The notes below the pieces were generated by a model, which ran no database searches, was not told where the DNA came from, and saw only the letters and a program-made list of their open reading frames with translations. Below are positions 41,406 through 48,024 of a stretch of DNA of 64,000 nucleotides, in pieces (position 1 is the first letter of the stretch; each line of letters starts with the position of its first letter). The DNA is from Pseudomonadota bacterium. Its GTDB lineage: Bacteria; Pseudomonadota; Gammaproteobacteria; Steroidobacterales; Woeseiaceae. Made by a program: the position numbers and the translations under genes. The DNA is taken from the NCBI GenBank assembly GCA_022563505.1, contig JADFNG010000005.1, forward strand, positions 1 to 64,000, written 5' to 3'.

Positions 41406-42173
41406 TCAGCGCAGCTGAATTTCCTCGGCCGTTTGTTCGCCAATCACCGCGTAGCGCAAGCTCTTCGGTACCATGGCGTCCAGTTTCGAGATGGCGATGC
41501 GACCGCCCATGATCTCGGCATAGCGCTGCGGAAACAGCGGGCGTCGATCGGGTTCGCCGTAGCCGTGTGGAAAAGTGGGATTGCCGTCTGCCGAATCGTA
41601 TTTGTCTGTTGCTCCGAGCGTGTGCAGAAACTCGTGCGCAATGATAACGTTGTTCCTGCCTTTTTGGCGGCGGCTGGCGAATGCGTTAACAATACCGACC
41701 ATGCCTTTCTGCAAGCCAACGGAATTCTCGAGATGAAATGCGTCGCTTGGCGAGTGGTAGCGCACGAAAATTCGGACATCGGGTGCCGGGTCATCCTGGT
41801 CTTTGGTCACCGAACTTGCCCACCAGCGAATTTTCAGACTCCATAACAGCACACGCCAAGCGGTTGGCTCGCCGCCGAGTGCGGGTGGTTGCTCAGTGAT
41901 TTCGCGACCCAGTTCGATGCGGACCGGGCGTCTCAGATCGTGTCCGTATTTGGCGATTTCCCGGACGACAAACTCCTCAATACCGCTGAAGGTTTTGACC
42001 TTGAGCTTGTCGATATAGCGGCTGCTTACATCACTGCCATCGGCGTTAATCGGATAAATTTTTACCCACAGACTGCTGTCCCAATCCGTGCTTCGCGCCT
42101 GCGTGAGTAGGGTGCTCACGGCAACGAAGAAAAGGACAAACAGCAAGATACCTATGCGTATGGCTTTGAACAT
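41406..42173 (-). CDS. Putative secreted zinc metalloprotease (HExxHxxGxxD metzincin-like)
   Basis: Signal/TM N-terminus; IIAHEFLHTLGATDKYD. Confidence 0.6.
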   Translation of the reverse strand: MFKAIRIGILLFVLFFVAVSTLLTQARSTDWDSSLWVKIYPINADGSDVSSRYIDKLKVKTFSGIEEFVVREIAKYGHDLRRPVRIELGREITEQPPALGGEPTAWRVLLWSLKIRWWASSVTKDQDDPAPDVRIFVRYHSPSDAFHLENSVGLQKGMVGIVNAFASRRQKGRNNVIIAHEFLHTLGATDKYDSADGNPTFPHGYGEPDRRPLFPQRYAEIMGGRIAISKLDAMVPKSLRYAVIGEQTAEEIQLR

Positions 42174-44817: not shown

Positions 44818-45023
44818 ATAAAAAGCCCCGCAGCGGATGCGGCGGGGCTAATATCTCTTTTTTACAAAAGAGGTAACTGGGAATTCGGCAACCAGATACT
44901 TACCTGTCGTTATTATTATCGGATCCGGATCTCATTATTTTTATTGTTTTTGTTCTTCTGGCGTCTAAATCCTGGCTGTACCGATCGTTCAATTACCAAG
45001 TCCAGTTACATTTCGCTTGGGCG
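44818..45023 (-). ncRNA. Candidate sigma-54-dependent small RNA (~200 nt) with A-rich Hfq/Crc-type motifs
   Basis: Starts ~12 nt after a consensus sigma-54 element; contains AAGAACAAAAACAATAAAAATAATGAG and GATAATAATAACG (AANAANAA-like); then hairpin CTCTTTT-gta-AAAAGAG and a terminator; no substantial ORF. Confidence 0.55.
44820..44849 (-). terminator. Rho-independent terminator of the candidate sRNA
   Basis: Minus strand AGCCCCGC-cgcatccgct-GCGGGGCT followed by TTTTATT. Confidence 0.8.
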
Positions 45024-45033
45024 TGATCTTAAA

Positions 45034-45049
45034 AGCAAGTCTTGTGCCA
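45034..45049 (-). promoter_or_regulatory. Sigma-54 (RpoN) promoter -24/-12
   Basis: Minus strand TGGCACAAGACTTGCT fits TGGCACR-N4-TTGCW exactly. Confidence 0.75.
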
Positions 45050-45152
45050 GAGTTCATAAAATTTATAATTATCATTCGCTTATCGTAAATCGCAGAAGCA
45101 GATGATTAACACGCCGAGGCGATCTGTAAAATCCCCCGACAATTTCCACCAG

Positions 45153-45172
45153 ATAGGCAAAATACTGCCTAT
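45153..45172. promoter_or_regulatory. Inverted repeat, candidate enhancer-binding-protein site
   Basis: ATAGGCA-aaatac-TGCCTAT, ~105 bp upstream of the sigma-54 -24 element. Confidence 0.4.
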
Positions 45173-45309: not shown

Positions 45310-47286
45310 TTATTCGACGCTCTCGGTCATCTGCGCCCGCTCCAGGAGGCTGACCAGACTGAAAAATCGCCCATTGCGGACCACCGCGATAATGTTCAGT
45401 GCATCCGCTACATTGATCAGCGGATCGCCGGATACCAGGATCAGGTCCGCACGTGCGCCGGGTGTGATTTGACCGATTTTGCCACCGAGGCCAAGAATCC
45501 GCGCCGCATTCCGGCCCGCTGCCTTGAGCACCTGGTCGCCGCTCAGGCCTGCTGCCGATAATGCTCGCAATTCGGCGTGCAGTGCGAGTCCGGGCGGCAT
45601 TCCATTGGGCTTGCTAGCGAGAACGATCGACGACAGGCCTACGTCGATTTTCGGCATCGAGGTCAGGCGGCGGCGCGTCAAAACCTGGCCGCGGTATCGC
45701 GATGCCTGTCTCGAGCGGTAGAGTGCGGCCAGGCCGGGAGTACCTTCCCCCGCGAGCCCCGAAAGCAGCGCAAGCGGATCGCCAATCGGCGGACCCTGCC
45801 TGTCCTGGTAGCGATTGCCAAGCGGAGACGGCGGCATCGTGTTCGCGGCGAGCAGCAGGCTCGCACCGATGCTCCGCCCGACAACCCTGTTTTCGGCCAA
45901 TACCGGCGTGCCGCGTTCTTGCCAGAGTTGTACCTGCTCGCGTTGTTCGGGATCTCCGCGGGCTTCTGCCGTCACGGCGATAAGATAGATCGGTTCCTCG
46001 ACTTCCTGCGGTGTCAGTGCCGCAAGATTTGCGGCACGCAATATTCGAGGTCCGGGGTATTGTTCGTCATCCCACATCTCGAATTCCTGCGTCGATGCAG
46101 CCGTGGACACGAGGGTGGTCACGCCGTAGGCCAGCAATTCGGCGCCGCTGCGGGTCGGTGGCCCATCCGGTAGTGCCGAGTAAGCATCGATGAAACCGGG
46201 TAGCAGGGTCGCACTCCCCACATCGAGTACGGTGATCTCCGGCCAGTCCTGGCGTGGCACCACTGCTGCAATGATGCCGCCATCGAGGAGGACATCCATG
46301 CTGTCGCGGTAGCCGCGAGCAAGCCCGTCGAACAGGCGCGACGAACGTATGACGAGTTTTCCCGACGGAGGTGTGAGCAACGGTAAATCGTGCTCGGCAA
46401 TGGTGAATCCCGGACGCGGATCGGGCTTGCCAATGGTTGCGCGAAAGTTGATCCGACGGGATCGCCACTCACCGAAGCCGCGCGTTTTTATCCGTCCATC
46501 GGCTGTGTAGTAAAGGTGGTTCCGATCGAGCCAGCTCACCGGCGCCAGAAAATAATCTTCACTGCCGCCAAGTTCTCGTTCAAGCACGGGTTCGGACAAT
46601 ATGGCCATCTGCAAAGCATAGCCGTGCGCTGACTTTTTGAGAAAAGTGATCAGCGTGCCATCGGGTCGCCAGGACGGAGAGGCCAATGGCGTGTCGGACA
46701 CGATCAGGTCAGTGTCCGGTTCACCAAAGCGACGCAAAACCAGCGTCCATGTATTGCCCTCATGGTGGATGTAAGCAAGGTGGCGACCATCCGCCGACCA
46801 GGCGGCTTCAGTCTCATCACCAGGTTTGTCACTCAGCCGCCATTCCATGCCTGTATGCAGGTCCAGTTCCCAGATGTCGAGGCCGCTGTTGCGGCGCCAC
46901 GATGAAAAAATAATGCGCTCGCCGTCCGGATGCCAGGCGGCTTGCTGGTAACGTTCCTCGGGCTGCCCGAGCTGGATGCTGCGTCCCGTGGCGACCTCGG
47001 CGAGCCATAACTGGCTCGTGTCGATCCCGGTGGTTTGATACAGAATCTGCAATCCGTCGGGGGACCAGCGGGGACGCCTGGCCGGCAGCACAGTATCGAT
47101 TAACTTCAATGCCGCACCGCCGGCAGGCGGCAACAGCCAGATGCTGCCAAAAAGATCCATCGCAATACGCCCATCGGTGCGCGAGACGTCCGCCGCCAGG
47201 TGGTCCCCTTGCGTTGCGATAATCTGACCCGCAACAGGCTGGCTGAGCAAGAGCAATACGAGCCAGAGTGCCGTGCGCATGCTCAT
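45310..47286 (-). CDS. Secreted amidohydrolase-like protein with TolB/WD40-type beta-propeller
   Basis: Repeated PRWSPDG / AAWHPDGERIIFSSW / AAWSADGRHLAYI blades; LLPGFIDAYSALPDG and GARADLILVSGDPLINVADA of the amidohydrolase fold. Confidence 0.85.
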   Translation of the reverse strand: MSMRTALWLVLLLLSQPVAGQIIATQGDHLAADVSRTDGRIAMDLFGSIWLLPPAGGAALKLIDTVLPARRPRWSPDGLQILYQTTGIDTSQLWLAEVATGRSIQLGQPEERYQQAAWHPDGERIIFSSWRRNSGLDIWELDLHTGMEWRLSDKPGDETEAAWSADGRHLAYIHHEGNTWTLVLRRFGEPDTDLIVSDTPLASPSWRPDGTLITFLKKSAHGYALQMAILSEPVLERELGGSEDYFLAPVSWLDRNHLYYTADGRIKTRGFGEWRSRRINFRATIGKPDPRPGFTIAEHDLPLLTPPSGKLVIRSSRLFDGLARGYRDSMDVLLDGGIIAAVVPRQDWPEITVLDVGSATLLPGFIDAYSALPDGPPTRSGAELLAYGVTTLVSTAASTQEFEMWDDEQYPGPRILRAANLAALTPQEVEEPIYLIAVTAEARGDPEQREQVQLWQERGTPVLAENRVVGRSIGASLLLAANTMPPSPLGNRYQDRQGPPIGDPLALLSGLAGEGTPGLAALYRSRQASRYRGQVLTRRRLTSMPKIDVGLSSIVLASKPNGMPPGLALHAELRALSAAGLSGDQVLKAAGRNAARILGLGGKIGQITPGARADLILVSGDPLINVADALNIIAVVRNGRFFSLVSLLERAQMTESVE

Positions 47287-48024
47287 TCAGGGTTGCAGTC
47301 GGGTGCCGGTCCAGGCGGTGACGCTGAATTCGCCTTCGGCTTTGCGGGTCAGTTTTCTCGTCCATAAGGCACGGTCGTGAATGCGATCCGTGCCCTCGAT
47401 CCATAACTCGATGCTGGACGCCCAGATTCGCATGCCGCCCCAATGCGGCGGGCGGGCAATCGCAGCGGAGTCTTCCGCAACCCGCGTGCCGTGGTCCTCG
47501 GCCAACGACACACCCTGTTCTGCAGCACGGCCGCGGATCTGCCTGATCAGTGCCTCGTGGGATTCGATTGGCCGGCTTTGATCGCTTCCCCAGGCGCCAA
47601 GCTGGCTGCCTCCATCGCGCGATGCGAAATAGGCATCGCTTTCCGCTGCCGGTGATTGTACTGCGGTACCATCGATACGGATTTGTCGTCCCATGCTGTC
47701 CCAGTGGAACAAAACGCAGACATTGGGGTTTTGCTCCATTTCCCGGCATTTGTGCGATTGGTAATTCGTGTACATGACCAGGTAGCCCGGGTCTGCTTCA
47801 AAGGACTTGCACAGCACAATGCGGGCAGAGGGCTTGCCATCCGAACCGACCGTTACCAATGACATTGAATTCGGGTTGCGCTGAACCTTGTCGCTTGTCG
47901 CTGCCGCCAACCAGGCGGCCGCCCAATGCATCGGCTCCGATGGCAGCGTCTCGGGGAGATGATCAGCAAGATATTTGTTGGCCACGCAGTACTCCGGTAT
48001 CAGTCTGGATATGTATGTCATCAC
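47287..48024 (-). CDS. pdxH: Pyridoxamine 5'-phosphate oxidase
   Basis: SMSLVTVGSDGKPSARIVLCKSFEADPGYLVMYTNYQSHKCREMEQNP; C-terminal SVTAWTGTRLQP. Confidence 0.93.
   Translation of the reverse strand: MMTYISRLIPEYCVANKYLADHLPETLPSEPMHWAAAWLAAATSDKVQRNPNSMSLVTVGSDGKPSARIVLCKSFEADPGYLVMYTNYQSHKCREMEQNPNVCVLFHWDSMGRQIRIDGTAVQSPAAESDAYFASRDGGSQLGAWGSDQSRPIESHEALIRQIRGRAAEQGVSLAEDHGTRVAEDSAAIARPPHWGGMRIWASSIELWIEGTDRIHDRALWTRKLTRKAEGEFSVTAWTGTRLQP

Follow-up and report, generated by a model that had tools for sequence, protein, structure and literature searches.

Does the intergenic DNA between an amidohydrolase gene and a lipoprotein methyltransferase gene in this Woeseiaceae genome hold a small-RNA gene of its own, and if so, which regulatory programme does it serve? 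The original prediction, made on the 64,000-nucleotide stretch that was analysed (the window), placed a sigma-54 promoter on the minus strand, driving an RNA that ends at an intrinsic terminator and resembles CrcZ/CrcY of Pseudomonas. A sigma-54 match alone is weak evidence, since near-consensus sites are expected about seven times in the window (nine were found with at most one mismatch, against 7.4 expected). What makes the case for an sRNA gene decisive is the conservation of the whole block from the -24 box to the terminator.

A conserved block in the Woeseiaceae

When the 451 bp of intergenic DNA served as query against 101 Woeseiaceae genomes (12 genera sampled), about 80 of them gave strong homologues. 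Nearly all alignments run from query position 192 to the terminator; position 192 corresponds to base 45049, the T in the -24 box. The claim that a small-RNA gene lies here, driven by a sigma-54 promoter and closed by an intrinsic terminator, is upheld by this conserved block. The -24/-12 element TGGCACAAGACTTGC is present on the minus strand as claimed (45035-45049), and its TGGCA and TTGC are invariant in the 79 distinct homologues of alignments A1 and A3. An exact TGGCACN5TTGC occurs twice in the window, one of the two being this promoter, and TGGCACAAGACTTGCT is unique in the genome. Judging from the -12 spacing and the terminator, the transcript would be about 205 nt long (44820-45024, minus strand).

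Synteny is fixed among the Woeseiaceae homologues. An amidohydrolase with beta-propeller repeats (45310-47286) and a PNPOx (47287-48024) are the upstream neighbours in all loci, and downstream lie a PCMT-like lipoprotein methyltransferase, an amidase, an uncharacterised protein and an ABC ATPase. The sRNA is single copy in nearly all family genomes with a homologue. In the named genome collection, 73 contigs contain the 20-mer GGATTTAGACRCCAGAAGAA; they are titled as Woeseiaceae, Woeseia, and unclassified (Gamma)proteobacteria or Chromatiales MAGs. Searches with covariance model R1 under strict filters found the sRNA only in Woeseiaceae: in 197 genomes of the order, just one match lay outside the family (G248, 21 bits, E = 0.063), and 369 genomes of the class yielded no homologue beyond it. 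To judge from these comparisons, this is a real, free-standing and previously unlisted small-RNA gene, specific to Woeseiaceae. Elsewhere in the window, a 255-aa protein with no Pfam match (41406-42173, minus strand) is also encoded at the same position across the family.

The statement that the RNA has no real ORF was borne out, as no long ORF is present and none is conserved among the 79 homologues, in which start codons are scattered or absent; the possible 11-codon ORF is not conserved either. A longer ORF, or relatives revealing the 5′ UTR of a deleted gene, had been named in advance as grounds for abandoning the idea, and the search in relatives instead found the block at one conserved position, without a conserved ORF, in about 80 of 101 genomes. 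The sRNA does lie upstream of the methyltransferase-like gene in the same direction, as a leader or 5′ UTR of that gene would, or the remnant of a lost protein gene. We regard such a reading as highly improbable: a strong terminator closes the RNA in the homologues, the first downstream gene varies by genome (cluster 5, 7, 3 or 6), no start codon or ORF is conserved, part of the indels in the A-rich stretch are not multiples of three, and 21 of the 79 homologues carry a separate promoter-like motif 3′ of the terminator. The last of these, GGCACTT-N13/17-GTCY (often GCACTTTGCCCTTT...GTCCGAATAGGATCA), occurs in 0.1% of shuffles, lies up to ~100 nt past the terminator at loci that include L037:6243+, L051, L065, L068 and L092, and resembles a promoter of the ECF sigma type that would serve the gene behind it; no copy was seen in the window.

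An enhancer and promoter shared with PEP-CTERM genes

The inverted repeat ATAGGCA-N6-TGCCTAT is present at 45153-45172, but the enhancer role proposed for it was dropped, as only 1 of 79 homologues keeps the repeat. The true enhancer-like site, which the earlier reading had missed, appears to be GTCGGGGGATTTTACA (45125-45140, minus strand), a GTCG-N6-TTTACA element 75-76 bp upstream of the -24 element and a predicted binding site of PrsR. It is conserved as GTCGR-N5-TTTACA in 74 of 78 homologues, in almost all of which TTTAC lies 80-82 bp upstream of the -24 T, and its pattern occurs once in the window against 0.09 expected by chance. Between enhancer and promoter lies an IHF-like site, TAAGCGAATGATA (45070-45082, minus strand); YAANNNNTTGATW with at most one mismatch was found in 60 of 78 homologues and in 1.9% of shuffles.

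This arrangement matches a described promoter code. Motif 1, a 17-nt element ending in TTTACA and separated by a 32-92 nt spacer from a sigma-54 site, precedes 99 of 167 proteobacterial PEP-CTERM genes, and PrsR was predicted to be its reader (Haft et al. 2006, PMC1569441). At the sRNA, GTCGGGGGATTTTACA stands at a spacer of 75-76 nt, near the long end of that range. In Aquincola, pepA is RpoN-dependent (PMC9850573), and DAP-chip in Desulfovibrio showed a PrsR-type regulator binding PEP-CTERM genes (PMC3333781). Within the family, the combined enhancer and sigma-54 pattern occurs in 75 of 101 genomes, and the reversed-pattern control gave 0. Besides the sRNA locus, two genome scans yielded 16 sites followed by an intact gene. 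The products of nine of these genes are PEP-CTERM proteins over the TIGR02595 cut-off and those of two more have PEP-CTERM-like ends, so that the motif pair does stand before PEP-CTERM genes of the same family, as expected of a PrsR/RpoN PEP-CTERM regulon. The remaining genes encode PagP (two), SbnA-like proteins (two) and a haem peroxidase. The PagP-like lipid A palmitoyltransferase genes come from two genera (L210 in G002, L213 in G026), suggesting that outer-membrane remodelling may be part of the PEP-CTERM regulon, and the SbnA-like 2,3-diaminopropionate synthase genes lie at L176 (G073) and L177 (G016).

The proteins that would read this code are common in the family. PrsR was found over its curated cut-off in 71 of 101 Woeseiaceae genomes and in 0 of 14 control genomes, exosortase was found over cut-off in several family genomes, and G002, which belongs to the same genus as the window's genome, has both. 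The window's genome encodes RpoN (G000:C68), but its own assembly (82.5% complete) has neither PrsR nor exosortase over cut-off, which leaves the case for this particular genome genuinely incomplete. Across the 101 genomes, RNA and PrsR were both found in 70, neither in 18, only the RNA in 12 and only PrsR in one. Among genomes at least 90% complete, four have the RNA without PrsR over cut-off and one, G044, shows the reverse; with genus g4 left out, co-occurrence in this set gave P = 0.01, a value that is optimistic because the genomes counted are related. Many of the double negatives come from g4, a genus of reduced genomes (G004, G014, G019 and G022 among them; 1.1-2.0 Mb) with no sRNA and no PrsR over cut-off. 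Hfq too is missing from the sampled g4 genomes, as is RpoN from those tested; g4 appears to be a reduced lineage in which the entire circuit has been lost.

Because its promoter carries the same switch as the PEP-CTERM genes, the sRNA is probably the RNA arm of the PEP-CTERM (exosortase-sorted, extracellular-matrix) system. No sRNA was linked to PEP-CTERM/exosortase systems in the literature searched.

A conserved scaffold presenting an A-rich loop

The 210-nt RNA folds more stably than its dinucleotide shuffles (-59.4 versus a mean of -44.1 kcal/mol, z = -3.8). The 79 homologues share a fold in which a long helix, GUAACUG/CAGUUAC, closes the structure, followed inwards by two variable helices and then by a GGAUUU/AGAUCC helix with an apical loop at its end. 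Of the cells in this pairing scheme, 91.4% hold standard pairs, whereas sliding the partners by 1-3 columns leaves 24-43%. Both partners have changed at 19 of the 38 pairs, which was matched by 0 of 500 shuffles; a separate alignment of 31 sequences that was not fitted to the model gave the same picture of covariation. In the closing helix P1 (minus strand, 45003-45009 with 44873-44879), 96.5% of cells are paired and four pairs have changed on both sides. The two 3′ hairpins of the original prediction are both present and conserved. The small hairpin ACCUCUUUU/AAAAGAGAUA (44852-44875, minus strand) keeps its CUCU...AGAG in all aligned homologues, and the terminator (44820-44849, minus strand; GC stem 44824-44849 followed by a T-run) shows compensatory changes at several stem pairs.

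The GGAUUU strand (44967-44972, minus strand) pairs with (A)GAUCC at 44921-44926 in 98.9% of cells. It belongs to a nearly invariant AGGAU, and CAGGAU resembles CsrA sites, which raises the idea of a CsrA/RsmA-sequestering RNA. CsrA sponges display many GGA motifs in loops. In this RNA a single GGA is conserved, and it lies within a helix (mean unpaired probability 0.12), so this reading was dropped and has very little chance of being right.

The apical loop holds nine A-A-N triplets, AAG AAC AAA AAC AAT AAA AAT AAT GAG (44931-44957, minus strand), with a mean unpaired probability of 0.92, and is a predicted Hfq distal-face site; the A-R-N repeat is a ligand of that face (PMC4063720). A second, short A-rich run, ATAATAATAAC (44909-44919, minus strand), reads AAYAAYAAUAA in most homologues and is missing from L046 and L048. 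Both A-rich clusters of the original prediction are therefore present, and their repeat type fits the Hfq distal face as predicted. A single-loop shuffle test of the A-R-N run was weak (24 of 79 at 5%), because A-richness by itself yields long A-R-N runs in many shuffles, and it was replaced by a column test, whose pattern alone is strong: over the 79 sequences, column entropy by triplet phase was 0.23, 0.14 and 1.04 bits, indicating that the A-A-N register is under selection. Triplet periodicity with third-position variation is also what codon wobble would produce in a small Asn/Lys-rich peptide read in the frame CAG-AAG-AAY-AAY-...-TAA, and a TAA run does stand in frame after the array. Translation is nevertheless a most unlikely explanation, since 36 of 79 homologues have an upstream in-frame stop before any start, 22 have no start inside the RNA and the remainder have scattered ones, and L033, L034, L036 and L113 carry frameshifting indels. 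The predicted Hfq partner is encoded in the window's genome (G000:C49) and in every Woeseiaceae genus sampled except g4 and g5, the latter represented by one 82%-complete assembly.

Near the 5′ end of the RNA, the invariant segment GCCCAAGCGAA (45012-45022, minus strand) is a candidate base-pairing seed. It includes GCCCAAGC, found in 79 of 79 homologues, and has a mean unpaired probability of 0.67, against 0.48 for the whole RNA. A far more diverged locus occurs in G007 of genus g7 (L187:5710-6033), where the enhancer, promoter, first ~12 nt, A-R-N run, terminator and gene order are retained. The covariance model did not convincingly find this RNA and its orthology rests on synteny and promoter, but GUGCCCAAGCGA of the 5′ segment is still there despite the diverged body. 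The otherwise unrelated RNA body of G007 looks like a case of rapid sRNA turnover.

Mode of action and relation to known systems

We propose, with a probability of about 0.7, that the locus encodes a Woeseiaceae-specific, Hfq-binding sRNA that is activated by PrsK/PrsR and RpoN and tied to the exosortase/matrix programme. In this model, which we infer from comparative data as regards transcription, PrsR binding and Hfq binding alike, the PrsK-PrsR two-component system would sense a surface or envelope signal, PrsR would bind GTCG-N6-TTTACA, IHF would bend the DNA between enhancer and promoter, and the RpoN holoenzyme would start the ~205-nt RNA that ends at the terminator. As the A-R-N loop and the U-tail form the class II arrangement (PMC8294330), Hfq could bind through both of its faces, and the RNA would then act post-transcriptionally during PEP-CTERM protein production.

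How it would act is the point on which the main rival differs. We favour base pairing by the invariant 5′ segment, with Hfq titration less likely, because the segment and the scaffold outlast divergence. Target searches gave no support: outside its own gene, perfect complements of UGCCCAAGCGAA (12 nt) were no commoner than those of the reversed control, and in duplex energies against 13 co-regulated start regions, shuffled segments did as well in 26%, 13% and 35% of cases. Negative target searches are what would be expected of a CrcZ-like sponge, an abundant RNA that titrates Hfq through its A-R-N loop, frees Hfq-repressed mRNAs and has no pairing targets. The selected A-A-N register, the two to five AANAANAA motifs in each RNA and the sub-threshold CrcZ matches, which in 8 of 19 homologues cover the A-rich stretch, also speak for such a decoy. 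However, the RNA has just a single long array plus a short run, whereas CrcZ has six A-rich stretches (PMC4063720), the gene is single copy in nearly all genomes, and an invariant 5′ segment and a covarying scaffold would be superfluous in a pure sponge, so we consider the decoy doubtful as the main mode of action. A bolder idea, which we hold only tentatively and at somewhat less than even odds, covers pairing and decoy alike: the RNA would serve the PEP-CTERM/exosortase system as its dedicated arm for post-transcriptional control, with PrsR using one enhancer code to make both the matrix proteins and an RNA that reprogrammes Hfq-dependent expression in the switch from planktonic to matrix-embedded life. 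If the idea holds, exosortase systems would have their first regulatory RNA.

Bacteria of biofilms, flocs and sediments widely carry PEP-CTERM/exosortase systems, and the PrsK-PrsR system is little understood, so a conserved RNA under the PEP-CTERM enhancer would add a post-transcriptional layer and a testable handle. For the Woeseiaceae, which are abundant and mostly uncultured marine-sediment bacteria, it provides a defined regulatory RNA family that could be followed directly in metatranscriptome data and is a candidate for submission to Rfam.

Rfam covariance models assigned the window and 19 homologues to no family at threshold. CrcZ/CrcY (RF01675), the family to which the original prediction had pointed, scored 23.8 bits in the window and 21-27.5 bits in 8 of the 19 homologues against a gathering score of 95, and its matches land on the A-rich stretch, so the score appears to reflect a shared motif and not membership. 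Other sub-threshold matches (anti-hemB, Betaproteobacteria toxic sRNA, DsrA and others) map to the terminator hairpin and seem to have arisen by chance.

CrcZ/CrcY of Pseudomonas and Azotobacter nevertheless share with this RNA a free-standing gene, RpoN dependence (here read from the invariant -24/-12 element and the RpoN gene) and A-rich motifs of the Hfq distal-face type, and they too are activated by a two-component enhancer-binding protein, as we infer for the sRNA. The proposed likeness in architecture thus stands for the sigma-54 promoter, terminator and A-rich repeats, but not for a CbrB/CrcZ-type circuit: the enhancer is motif 1 with PrsR as predicted reader in place of a CbrB site, the locus is not downstream of cbrAB, and CbrAB-CrcZ has been reported only from Pseudomonadaceae (PMC8871633). 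CrcZ is 407 nt long with its six A-rich stretches, the sRNA ~205 nt with one long array, and beyond the shared motif there is no detectable homology.

Class II Hfq sRNAs of E. coli, such as CyaR and 3′ETS-leuZ, likewise carry an A-R-N stretch upstream of the terminator U-tail, so that both Hfq faces can be engaged (PMC8294330), and the sRNA has both elements. They have no sequence relation to the sRNA, whose Hfq binding is predicted. We know of no class II sRNA under sigma-54 and PrsR-type control. GlmY/GlmZ, Qrr and NrsZ are short, terminated RNAs made by RpoN with a response-regulator activator; their activators and sequences differ from those of the sRNA, and to our knowledge none is tied to PEP-CTERM/exosortase systems. 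The PrsK-PrsR-RpoN regulon of PEP-CTERM genes has the same order of motif 1, spacer and sigma-54 promoter as the sRNA, whereas its described members are protein genes. By its sequence and setting, the RNA represents a new family of sigma-54-driven, Hfq-type sRNAs, in a regulon for which we neither knew nor found another RNA.
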